The notes under the pieces are model-generated. The model searched no databases. It saw nothing but the letters and a program-made list of their open reading frames with translations, and had not been told where the DNA came from. Positions 10,515-22,579 of a DNA stretch of 64,000 bases are shown here, piece after piece; position 1 is the stretch's first letter, and each line of letters opens with the position of its first letter. Source of the DNA: Haloplanus sp. (GTDB lineage Archaea; Halobacteriota; Halobacteria; Halobacteriales; Haloferacaceae); NCBI RefSeq assembly GCF_028275055.1, contig NZ_JAQCNJ010000071.1:1-64000 (forward strand). The letters are read 5' to 3'. The position numbers and the translations under genes are program-made.

Positions 10515-12572
10515 ATGGGGGGGAGTCGTAGTCGTGGGAGTCGCGTCGCGGCCGCGGTGTGTTGTCTCGCACTCGTGACCGCACTCGCGCCGACGGTCGT
10601 CGCGGAGCCGAGCCTCAGCGTGAGCATCGACAGAACGGGTGTACAGGACGGCGAGACCGTTACCGTCACCGACGATCCGCGGGTCGAAATCGACGCCTCG
10701 GCAGACGCGGCAATCGAGTCGGTGACGGTCGAGGTCGACGGCGAGACGCGCCGGTCCTTCGAACCGGGGACCGAAACCTTCTCCGAACGGGTCACGCTCG
10801 ACCTCAGCGACGGCGAACACGAGGTGTCGGTCGTCGTCGAGGCAGACGACACCAGCCAGGTGACCGCGACGGTCCGGAAGGACTCGACGGCGCCTTTGCT
10901 GACGTACACGTCGCCGTTCGAGTCGGGGGGGTATCCGTCGGACGGAGCGGTGACGATCGAAACCGGGGATGCGACGCTCGCGGCCGATATATCCGACCAG
11001 AGCAACATCAGTCGGGTGCGGATCGAGCGGAACTACAAGTGGACGTTTGCTGAGAGGTCGAGACGCGACCAGACGGTGTACCGCATCGACGATCCCGGGA
11101 CGAACGTCTCGAAGCCGCTCCTGTTCGGTCTCGGCGAGAACGACCTGCAGGTGGTGGTCATCGATGAACACGGGCACCGGCGCACCCACGACATGACCGT
11201 CACGGTCGAGGACGACCGACGGCCGACGATCGTTCTGGATCGGTTCGAGCGGATCTCCGACGGCCGTCTCAAGATCGGGGGGACCGTCAGCGACGATGTC
11301 AAGGTGGATTCGCTTGAGTACCGGATCGAGAACACGGGCGACCAGCAGTACGCCGTGAACCCGACGTCGAAGGAGCCGACACGGGACCGACTCGAAACCG
11401 AGTTCGAGTTCACCGCCACGGTCAACGAGGACACCGAATCGGTCACGCTGGTGGCGACCGACGTGGCGGGCAACACCCGAAGCCGTGAGCTACCGATCGA
11501 CTATCGCGGCCACGTCGCGCCAACGATCACGGTCGACGGGGCGGCCACCCGCGTCGACGGCGACGCCATCGCGGTCGAGGGGCGCGTCGACGACGGGCGG
11601 GTCACGCGGGTCGTCGTCGAGGCCCGGGGTCCCGACGGAACAACCGTTGACACGGCCACCGCCTACGACGGAGAGCCAAGAGCGGAGGTTACGGTCCGGA
11701 GACGGGTCGACGCGGCGAACGGTGAGACGACCGTCGTGATCCGTGCAATCGACGTCGACGGTGGCGAATACCGCGAGTCGCTGACCGTCGGGACGCCGAC
11801 GGCGACGCCCACAGCCACGCCGACGGCGACGGCGACGGCGACGCCCACGACGGCGGCAACCGAAACGCCGACCGAAGGTGGGGGAGGGTCCGGTTCCGAC
11901 GGCGGCGGGAGCGACGGTGGATCGTCGGTTCCGATCCCCGATCCGGGGGTACTCGCTCTCCTCGTCGGGGTCGGACTGCTCGTCGTCGGTGTCCGCCGGA
12001 TCGATTGGGGGTCGCTCTCGCTGGCGGAACCGCCGGACGTCGACACCACGGACCGGGACCGGAATCGGGACCGCGGTCCTCCGAGTGCGGGGACGGAGAA
12101 CGGGGTTGACGCCGACGCCGACGCCGACGCCGACGCCGGCGCCGGCGAGTCTCCGAGTCTCGACGGCGGCCCGGAGGGCGGCGACGGGGCGGTGGCCAAC
12201 GACGGGACGGCCGAGAACACCGAACCGATCGACGACACCGGGACACCGGCCGCAGGGACCGATGTCGATCGCTTTATCATGGAGCACTCCGCCACGGCGG
12301 TCGACGACGACGCCCTCTCCAGGTTCGTCGACGGACTTGACGCCGAGGGCGTCTCGGCGGTCGTCGACGAACTCGACGCCGACGAAACCGAAAGGGTCGT
12401 GATGGCGACCCGGATACTACAACGGGTGGTGAGCCGGCGGCCGACACTGATCGCCGACAGCGACTCCGACGCTATACGGCGTCTCCGCGACCTGCGGTTG
12501 GCGTCCGATGCCGACGTGAAACGGGAGGCGACCAGGGCGGTGAACCGCTTCGACGACGCAGACCTGCTTTGA
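10515..12572 (+). CDS. Surface protein: signal peptide, Ig-like/repeat ectodomain, Thr/Ala/Pro stalk, one TM helix, cytoplasmic tail
   Basis: MGGSRSRGSRVAAAVCCLALVTALAPTVVAEPS signal sequence; beta-rich repeats (TEFEFTATVNEDTESVTLVATDVAGNTRSREL); TPTATPTATPTATATATP stalk; TM PDPGVLALLVGVGLLVVGVRRIDW; DADADADADAGAG linker; helical tail DRFIMEHSATAVDDDALSRFVDGL. Confidence 0.8.
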   Translation: MGGSRSRGSRVAAAVCCLALVTALAPTVVAEPSLSVSIDRTGVQDGETVTVTDDPRVEIDASADAAIESVTVEVDGETRRSFEPGTETFSERVTLDLSDGEHEVSVVVEADDTSQVTATVRKDSTAPLLTYTSPFESGGYPSDGAVTIETGDATLAADISDQSNISRVRIERNYKWTFAERSRRDQTVYRIDDPGTNVSKPLLFGLGENDLQVVVIDEHGHRRTHDMTVTVEDDRRPTIVLDRFERISDGRLKIGGTVSDDVKVDSLEYRIENTGDQQYAVNPTSKEPTRDRLETEFEFTATVNEDTESVTLVATDVAGNTRSRELPIDYRGHVAPTITVDGAATRVDGDAIAVEGRVDDGRVTRVVVEARGPDGTTVDTATAYDGEPRAEVTVRRRVDAANGETTVVIRAIDVDGGEYRESLTVGTPTATPTATPTATATATPTTAATETPTEGGGGSGSDGGGSDGGSSVPIPDPGVLALLVGVGLLVVGVRRIDWGSLSLAEPPDVDTTDRDRNRDRGPPSAGTENGVDADADADADAGAGESPSLDGGPEGGDGAVANDGTAENTEPIDDTGTPAAGTDVDRFIMEHSATAVDDDALSRFVDGLDAEGVSAVVDELDADETERVVMATRILQRVVSRRPTLIADSDSDAIRRLRDLRLASDADVKREATRAVNRFDDADLL
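11797..11870 (+). repeat. Low-complexity Thr/Ala/Pro-encoding repeat (surface-protein stalk)
   Basis: Repeated acgccgacggcgacgcccacagcc units encoding TPTATPTATPTATATATPT. Confidence 0.7.
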
Positions 12573-12711
12573 CCGCAGGAACCGACGCGTTGCGGTGTCG
12601 TTCATGATGGATTGTGTGACCGAGGATTCCGGCGGTCGCGACGTGGCGTGAAACATCGTCGCCGCCCGATTCCGGGGGCGGCCACCACCCACATTCATTA
12701 CATCGGGCGGA

Positions 12712-22400: not shown

Positions 22401-22579
22401 ACGAGCGTAACCTCTATGTCCCGGCCGGCAGGCGTGTGTACGCGTTCGACCCGTTGACTGGGAGGCAGTCGTGGAGCTTCCGGCTGAAAGAGAAGGTTCG
22501 GGCACAGCCAGCGTACGGCGACGGGAGCTTGTTCGTCGCGACGACGGCGGGGCGCGTTCGAGCACTCGATCTCGACTGA
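19436..22579 (+). CDS. Polytopic membrane protein with disordered linker and C-terminal PQQ-type beta-propeller
   Basis: ATGA overlap with the previous gene; about four TM segments in the first 500 aa; Pro/Gly/Ser/Asp-rich linkers; repeated blades such as LRWEYNTDDEPLAPVVSGGTVYIVDRGGRIYAVDETGEKRWTAAVDDEINSSPALHDDKLYFGSESGTLYAMDTSGDRLW. Confidence 0.85.
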   Translation: MSDLRIYAETGACLLNTGPDVDHETDAIRRSMKEEVLLYYDPSRSFLRCYVQVQRAQPEQFAFEYEHDGGPDTDIFSAFVSDARREVEKTNWRIIDENSAVFTALESGPYTEPETDEDDVQALLSEDERIEFAATDRTTAVGLVPYLRETFGEEHSIAISRAGRVRPVADADFVVVPDQSYTGLTGSTEERLERVRVEYWRGELSATVTELSDGTGTAVRTDRLIGHIRREGLDDRFGIVARPTSASWADPGGRWFVATAVAGTVLVAASLLATTVSDEVLGLLGREVTFTPPLIPLPSAIPDVLSGGAGFPSWVVVAVTGVLLAVGGGSFCSVVGVRTLAGRFSLPFPSAGERREPPSVTDPTLTAPQKSIGECLDRLVDAAGRETAVESLSAELDGRGVDVLSEREASLYSIGARALGVVAGVGVSAAVYLSGGFLVRRLVSLLSGAWVLVLNGLVGVALVVVVAGVGAAVSAALGRSRTTDRPTGTVGTSGNGTGKESRRSRTDRPAGATGSGDEGRQSRRGGQSDVSPRTVKELRGMMNNPKRLKQRIEPRSLLKEVQKNPQRDDIKKLLRRYENVISEEVVPPEKRGLIEPSSGFPSSGDRSGSSADRPDADVAGTDDPPGRSRGGPAHGDDSDRSPGPTGDTPAEGSSTPEDPGVGRDADTPEEGGTGNAPADDGSRGTTADASVTDPSNGFAEFRYDGANSGYVRCRHGSGARPTLRWEYNTDDEPLAPVVSGGTVYIVDRGGRIYAVDETGEKRWTAAVDDEINSSPALHDDKLYFGSESGTLYAMDTSGDRLWDERIGASSGRLPGGTAEIITPPAVTDGTVYVGDIEGNIHARDAATGREVWRDETNGAIYGKLAIDGERLFAANEKGLLAAYDTGGGRIWSAGAGYGITTAPAIDDGSLYVVDRNGVIHRYDPTQSGAEVGTHPMGRTDPVSPTVGDGRVFVGTKTGTVIAVGTDLERRWWSAETDHGDRILAPFLLDERNLYVPAGRRVYAFDPLTGRQSWSFRLKEKVRAQPAYGDGSLFVATTAGRVRALDLD

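Follow-up and report, generated by a model that had tools for sequence, protein, structure and literature searches.

What kind of system is encoded by five consecutive genes of Haloplanus sp. in which a giant tubulin-like protein stands next to two membrane GTPases, and do all five genes belong to it? The cluster occupies positions 10515-22579 on the + strand of a 64,000-nt stretch of contig NZ_JAQCNJ010000071.1, called the window throughout, and its five open reading frames (ORFs), designated A to E, were confirmed at the expected coordinates with codon statistics typical of real genes. A preliminary description of this DNA had pointed out five + strand genes, a gap of only 3 nt between B and C, an ATGA overlap of D with E and the motif GGGTGSG in B, all of which was borne out. 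On balance, it seems probable that the products of B to E make up a membrane-tethered, GTPase-switched tubulin-like assembly carried on a movable cassette. The evidence for this reading comes from the predicted fold of B, from a split of the two GTPases, one dead and one active, that recurs across haloarchaeal loci, from a domain of E that follows the active copy, and from the distribution of the genes among related genomes.

Gene B (12712-16092, 1126 amino acids (aa)) encodes an N-terminal GTPase domain, a long helical middle and a conserved C-terminal segment. The protein matches the Pfam family Tubulin_2 (PF13809) with an E-value of 2.4e-10 and 40.7 bits at a curated cut-off of 27, this family was matched by 30/30 aligned relatives of B, and the nucleotide-binding loop (T4) GGGTGSG (13300-13320, residues 197-203) occupies columns that are nearly invariant across the family alignments. 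Sequence searches of the PDB with B alone retrieved only TubZ at an E-value of 0.1, while with the family profile FtsZ was recovered at 5e-6. The AlphaFold model, with a predicted local distance difference test score (pLDDT) of 81.7 and a predicted template modelling score (pTM) of 0.61, gave in Foldseek 50 best PDB matches that all belong to the tubulin superfamily (FtsZ, TubZ, tubulin and CetZ; prob 1.00). The preliminary assignment of B to Tubulin_2/FtsZl1 is hence confirmed, as far as profile and predicted structure go, and the modelled fold, compared with tubulin, FtsZ, CetZ and TubZ, is that of the tubulin/FtsZ GTPases. Helices at residues 525-602 and 822-861 of the model form a long helical region after the GTPase domain, which is consistent with the helical or coiled-coil region of the family. 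Within the tubulin superfamily, FtsZl1 proteins rank among the most diverged. Closest to the window B (45% identity) is an orphan tubulin of a congener (L031, 9729-12980, - strand) with GTPase partners absent, which has lost most of the GTP loop through a deletion of about 25 residues that keeps the frame, and which is probably decaying.

Genes C (16096-17589, 497 aa) and D (17670-19439) encode paralogous proteins of one family of GTPases with multiple transmembrane segments (TMs), D being tentatively DO-GTPase-like. Motif alignments revealed that C has lost the P-loop, the Walker B motif (DxxGE) and TKxD, and that D has kept the P-loop GPARSGKS (18390-18413) and TKAD, with DYGGA where the family has DYxGE; the Walker B glutamate, present in most family members, is gone from the window D. 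A search of the PDB with the GTPase profile gave nothing specific. The charge rule was inconsistent for the topology of C and D, and their GTPase domains are assumed to be cytoplasmic.

The distribution of this motif loss was followed in 294 Halobacteria genomes, 38 of which contain full-length relatives of B (about 1040-1200 aa), using the 20-kb surroundings, named loci and plasmids, our own gene-calling script, by which gene starts are approximate, and profiles of B, the GTPases and the N-terminal domain of E. The tubulin gene is directly followed by a same-strand GTPase of the C/D family in 56/62 non-redundant loci with long B; of the six exceptions, two are bacterial loci and four are orphan tubulins. 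Where a single GTPase is present in such loci, the P-loop is kept (42/42). Each of the 14 GTPases adjacent to B that lack a P-loop has an active paralogue, which lies in the same locus in 13 cases and, in Halorubrum sodomense, at a distance of about 14 kb. In the two-GTPase loci the P-loop-less copy lies directly downstream of the tubulin gene (14/14), and with few exceptions an E-type gene comes immediately after the active paralogue. The one irregularity in the pairing of dead with active copies is locus L034, where the second copy has also lost the P-loop lysine (GPHSSGRR). In a tree of 58 GTPases, 12/13 P-loop-less copies fall in one clade with support of 100/100, their active partners, including the window D, in a second, which also holds the L034 copy, and single GTPases in a third. 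The same pairing holds in the divergent loci L035, L036, L073 and L091. The designation of C as pseudo-GTPase and D as GTPase, already made in the preliminary description, can thus be extended to what is, by sequence, a conserved rule: the dead GTPase goes with the tubulin and the active one with the E-type protein. Because this adjacency persists even when the genes are divergent, we infer two physical modules, B-C and D-E. In L129 (11942-14848) and L091 (4784-7810, - strand), the E-type protein is fused to a second TM and pseudo-GTPase module, and hence a dead GTPase can also be part of an E-type protein.

Gene E (19436-22579, 1047 aa) was correctly described before as encoding a multi-TM protein with a C-terminal beta-propeller, since four TMs are predicted and the propeller (21533-22576) matches PQQ_2 at 3.8e-39; what had been overlooked is a separate N-terminal domain (19436-20056, residues 1-207), followed by the TMs and a basic linker. 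This domain, for which we use the name LRIY from its usual start, matched no Pfam family in the 25 members searched, and its profile found nothing specific in the PDB. Its profile matches 43/294 Halobacteria genomes at E-values of 1e-5 to 1e-98, comprising 37/38 B-positive genomes as compared with 6/256 others. The B profile has only short matches, of the FtsZ/CetZ type, in five of these six and no match in the sixth, and in at least five of the six LRIY adjoins a P-loop GTPase. Overall, the LRIY gene directly follows a same-strand P-loop GTPase in 52/54 cases. Pairs of GTPase and LRIY without an adjoining long tubulin gene were observed at L130, L131, L132, L133 and L134, and the GTPase-LRIY pair may be the older unit.

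The AlphaFold model of LRIY (pLDDT 87) contains in its first half the order b-b-a-b-b-b-a-a, which is the longin order. Foldseek returned no match at E <= 0.001 and ranked CodY GAF domains first, with about half of the top 50 being longin/roadblock proteins (Ragulator, Roadblock, Sec22b, AP2 and COPI subunits, Mon1-Ccz1). That LRIY is a longin-like domain is, from these models, a lead only. A diverged GAP1 was also considered and was ruled out at the sequence level, the comparison of LRIY with GAP1 ORFs giving prob <=0.2. The C-termini of E-type proteins vary and include extracellular CarboxypepD_reg/PEGA domains after one TM, a coiled coil (L041), a pseudo-GTPase (L129, L091) and a propeller (window, L038, L152); in single-GTPase systems, the extracellular C-terminus of LRIY proteins consists of immunoglobulin (Ig)/PEGA domains beyond one TM. 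Hydropathy and charge, used in place of a trained predictor, place the positive loops of the four TMs of E on the N-terminal side, with the same outcome for L038, and hence by TM parity and charge both LRIY and propeller are probably cytoplasmic. At L032 (1329-4541, - strand) and L034 (12929-16312, + strand), the cassette ends with a separate soluble protein of propeller plus beta-sandwich, which apparently takes the place of the propeller that in the window is part of E.

The relation of A to the other genes is of a different kind. Gene A (10515-12572, 685 aa) encodes, as proposed earlier, a surface protein, with Ig-like Big_7 domains (Pfam E-value 1.4e-7), a signal peptide and one TM near the C-terminus (about 11946-12002) followed by a cytoplasmic tail. 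The chromosomal site, marked by a 1706-aa gene in most, a sulfatase, a CBS protein and glycyl-tRNA synthetase, is syntenic in 11 congeners and lacks B-E in them. Eight of the 11 have A at that site with the convergent sulfatase next to it, at gaps of 39-354 bp within which the gene caller put a small ORF in some congeners, and some of these A copies have no cytoplasmic tail. Plasmid pCBA1112-01 of Haloplanus rubicundus carries A-B-C-D-E in the window order, with identities to the window of 42% for the tubulin, 40% for C, 34% for D and 35% for the N-terminal part of E. Its A is homologous to the window A over the full length by phmmer (1e-121) and alignment, BLASTP aligning only the tail. In all, four archaeal plasmids carry B, namely pCBA1112-01 and three more. 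Since no homologue of A occurred in the 40 loci of the first survey rounds, A had at first been viewed as unconserved, which the plasmid homologue partly reversed; its obligate membership is weakened, because eight congeners hold A without B-E. The co-occurrence of all five families, named in the preliminary description as a check, thus stands for B-E, whose families recur elsewhere, and for the full set on the Haloplanus plasmid, with A being more loosely associated. Genes B-E are therefore an accessory, movable cassette, and A is a frequent, genus-resident neighbour that may have been recruited as an optional partner.

From gene content, folds, motif loss with its rule, empty sites and the plasmid copy, we infer interactions, polymerisation and purpose as follows. 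B is, in this view, a cytoplasmic FtsZl1 protein that probably forms a polymer or scaffold, and C and D are membrane-embedded sister GTPases, dead and active, respectively. Because the dead copy always lies by the tubulin gene and the active copy by the LRIY gene, C could serve as the membrane dock of B, and the LRIY domain of E could regulate D or be its effector. The GTPase/TM modules of D and C, which are related, would bring the two together, and so the GTP state of D, under the control of E, would decide the membrane assembly of B, with the variable C-terminal part of E (propeller, coiled coil, pseudo-GTPase or extracellular Ig/PEGA) supplying input or target. The cassette would serve a conditional stress or conflict response and not housekeeping division, as suggested by its occasional linkage to Hsp70, GrpE, DnaJ and vWA genes, its patchy presence and its plasmid copies. 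A more specific and more doubtful version of this scheme, drawn by analogy, is a two-module switch, in which the dead GTPase is the anchor of a giant tubulin-like filament whose assembly is triggered by the active sister, under a longin-like regulator with exchangeable sensors; it would amount to an archaeal counterpart of the heterodimeric Rag-Ragulator logic, tied to a cytoskeleton and carried on a mobile conflict/stress cassette.

Several observations weigh against a GTPase-switched assembly. Catalysis by D is not certain, given DYGGA in place of DYxGE. Polymerisation of B is uncertain as well, because FtsZl1 proteins have no recognisable T6-H7 elements (PMC2875224). The longin matches of LRIY are weak, with a best E-value of about 0.2, a TM-score (template modelling score) by target of <=0.46 and CodY GAF ahead of them. 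GAP1 (PF20013), a defining partner of bacterial DO-GTPase systems, was found in 0/38 B-positive genomes, and the 64-kb window has no gene for Hsp70, GrpE or vWA proteins. None of the PADLOC models fits A-E, and in the open-access literature no experiments on haloarchaeal members or on FtsZl1 function were found.

The main competitor of a conditional switch is a constitutive cytoskeleton for cell shape or membrane remodelling, in which filaments of B bend or partition the membrane and the GTPases and TM proteins anchor them. It follows the proposal of Makarova and Koonin from genomic context (PMC2875224), and it agrees with the tubulin fold of B and with the fact that the partners of B are all membrane proteins. 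Against a constitutive function stand its presence in only about 38/294 Halobacteria genomes, the empty sites in most congeners, the plasmid copies, the variable E C-termini and the chaperone neighbours. This reading is given a clearly lower probability, and the balance leans, although not decisively, towards a response to stress or conflict and away from housekeeping remodelling. Less likely still is that B has given up polymerisation and, as a monomer or oligomer, provides the GTPase pair with a GTP-dependent scaffold or signalling hub. The absence of recognisable T6-H7 contacts in FtsZl1 (PMC2875224) and the large helical insertions in the B model would fit such a role, whereas the GTP loop is nearly invariant in the family and the tubulin domain models fully. 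Moreover, known tubulin superfamily members polymerise.

Equally improbable is the trans-envelope machine envisaged in the preliminary description, in which the extracellular A senses or adheres and is coupled via the GTPases to the B filament, the five genes being one unit. In its favour, pCBA1112-01 carries the five genes in the window order; the Ig domains, single TM and cytoplasmic tail of A also suit it, and A could stand in for the extracellular Ig/PEGA domains of the LRIY proteins of single-GTPase systems. It loses ground with A occurring without B-E in 8/11 congeners, in some without the tail, with the absence of an A homologue from the other two-GTPase loci of the first survey rounds, and with the predicted cytoplasmic location of the E propeller. 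That the neighbours are unrelated and have no functional link is hardly credible: A can indeed stand alone, but the order B-GTPase(-GTPase)-LRIY is kept in dozens of loci, and other families of the phylum keep it too; there the tubulin-GTPase pair recurs, together with LRIY on the Methanohalobium plasmid pMETEV01. The assembly switched by D is the preferred reading, and the interpretation of the preliminary description as a whole is partly supported.

How new is such a cassette? FtsZl1 was founded on the haloarchaeal protein Huta_2051 of Halorhabdus utahensis by Makarova and Koonin in 2010 (PMC2875224), who described loci with vWA proteins, kinases and GTPases, the latter membrane-associated in archaea, and proposed a membrane-remodelling role. 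The claim of a new haloarchaeal version of a bacterial system hence does not hold, and the kind is already known. The cassette shares with FtsZl1 loci the tubulin family, a length of about 1050 aa, GGGTG(S/T)G, central helices or coiled coil, adjoining membrane GTPases and further TM proteins. It differs in having no vWA or protein kinase gene, vWA being frequent and not universal in the family, in the doubling of the GTPase, with one copy dead and the other active, and in a protein that joins LRIY to four TMs and a propeller. The archaeal families A1-A2 of PMC2875224 may correspond to the LRIY proteins. From haloarchaeal FtsZ1, FtsZ2 and CetZ, with which it shares the superfamily GTP loop, B differs in being three times longer, of the Tubulin_2 type, accessory and partnered by membrane GTPases.

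In the bacterial GTPase-centric conflict systems (DO-GTPase, GAP1-N2) of Kaur et al. 2020 (PMC7159879), DO-GTPases occur in pairs, some of them with TMs, alongside GAP1 and FNIII proteins and tubulin, Hsp70-GrpE-DnaJ or vWA themes. Common to both are pairs of P-loop GTPases that bear TMs and, in most archaeal members, DxxGE, a tubulin partner, and a third membrane protein of variable C-terminus downstream of the GTPase. FNIII/Ig-type proteins and Hsp70, GrpE, DnaJ and vWA genes lie beside some archaeal loci, with only the Ig protein A in the window. In contrast, the cassette has LRIY in the place of GAP1 and no zinc ribbons, one archaeal paralogue is degenerate, and the Walker B glutamate is lost in the window D. 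With hhalign, the alignment of the archaeal GTPases to DO-GTPase2 (prob 97) spans 166 columns and takes in the P-loop, DxxGE and KxD, as compared with 18 columns only for the Ras-like MglA control; both comparison sets were small, that of DO-GTPase2 having four sequences. Individual members match weakly, 8/29 to DO-GTPase2 and 2/29 to DO-GTPase1 (best E-values 0.0017 and 0.00044), the window D not being among them. Longin/roadblock regulators (Ragulator, MglB, TRAPP, DENN longin) resemble LRIY in the predicted topology of its N-terminal half and in weak structural matches; sequence similarity is absent and the partner is DO-GTPase-like, not Ras-like. By these comparisons, the cassette belongs to FtsZl1 and would work like, without being classed as, a DO-GTPase/GAP1 system. 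In the open-access papers searched, we found neither the regular split between dead and active GTPases nor LRIY nor the empty sites.

The haloarchaeal loci offer a clean GTPase rule, a minimal four-gene cassette, natural empty sites and a plasmid copy, with which FtsZl1 function can be put to a direct test in culturable haloarchaea. Should LRIY prove to be longin-like, a prokaryotic tubulin would be joined to a GTPase-regulator pair of a type best known from eukaryotic membranes.

Within the cluster, the start of D is either GTG at 17661 (592 aa) or, more likely, ATG at 17670 (589 aa). A possible archaeal TATA box, TTTATA (17640-17645, + strand), 30 nt upstream of the ATG is one of two copies of this hexamer on the + strand of the window, and its position suggests a separate promoter for D-E.

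Around related loci, Hsp70 lies beside six, and vWA and GrpE beside some, with vWA near L139 and L152. Two DnaJ-Ig proteins with N-terminal DnaJ (L036, 14406-18151 and 18229-19806, both - strand) stand beside Hsp70 next to a tubulin-GTPase locus. Homologues of Mrr-type restriction nucleases lie by two unrelated two-GTPase loci (L034, 4052-5818, - strand; L041, 17913-19724, + strand). The PADLOC models mads_3 and mads_8 gave isolated weak matches, each to 1/29 GTPases; with PADLOC silent on A-E and only these nucleases nearby, a defence label was not adopted. A viral origin was likewise set aside, no relative being found in viral contigs in a scan with one short peptide pattern only. Upstream of the cluster, the 1706-aa gene (2041-7161) has counterparts of 1190-2213 aa and 62-85% identity at the same position in most congeners, and the region from 7671 to 12572, between this gene and the sulfatase, varies in content among congeners (MFS transporter, epimerase, small genes, A) and looks like an insertion hotspot.

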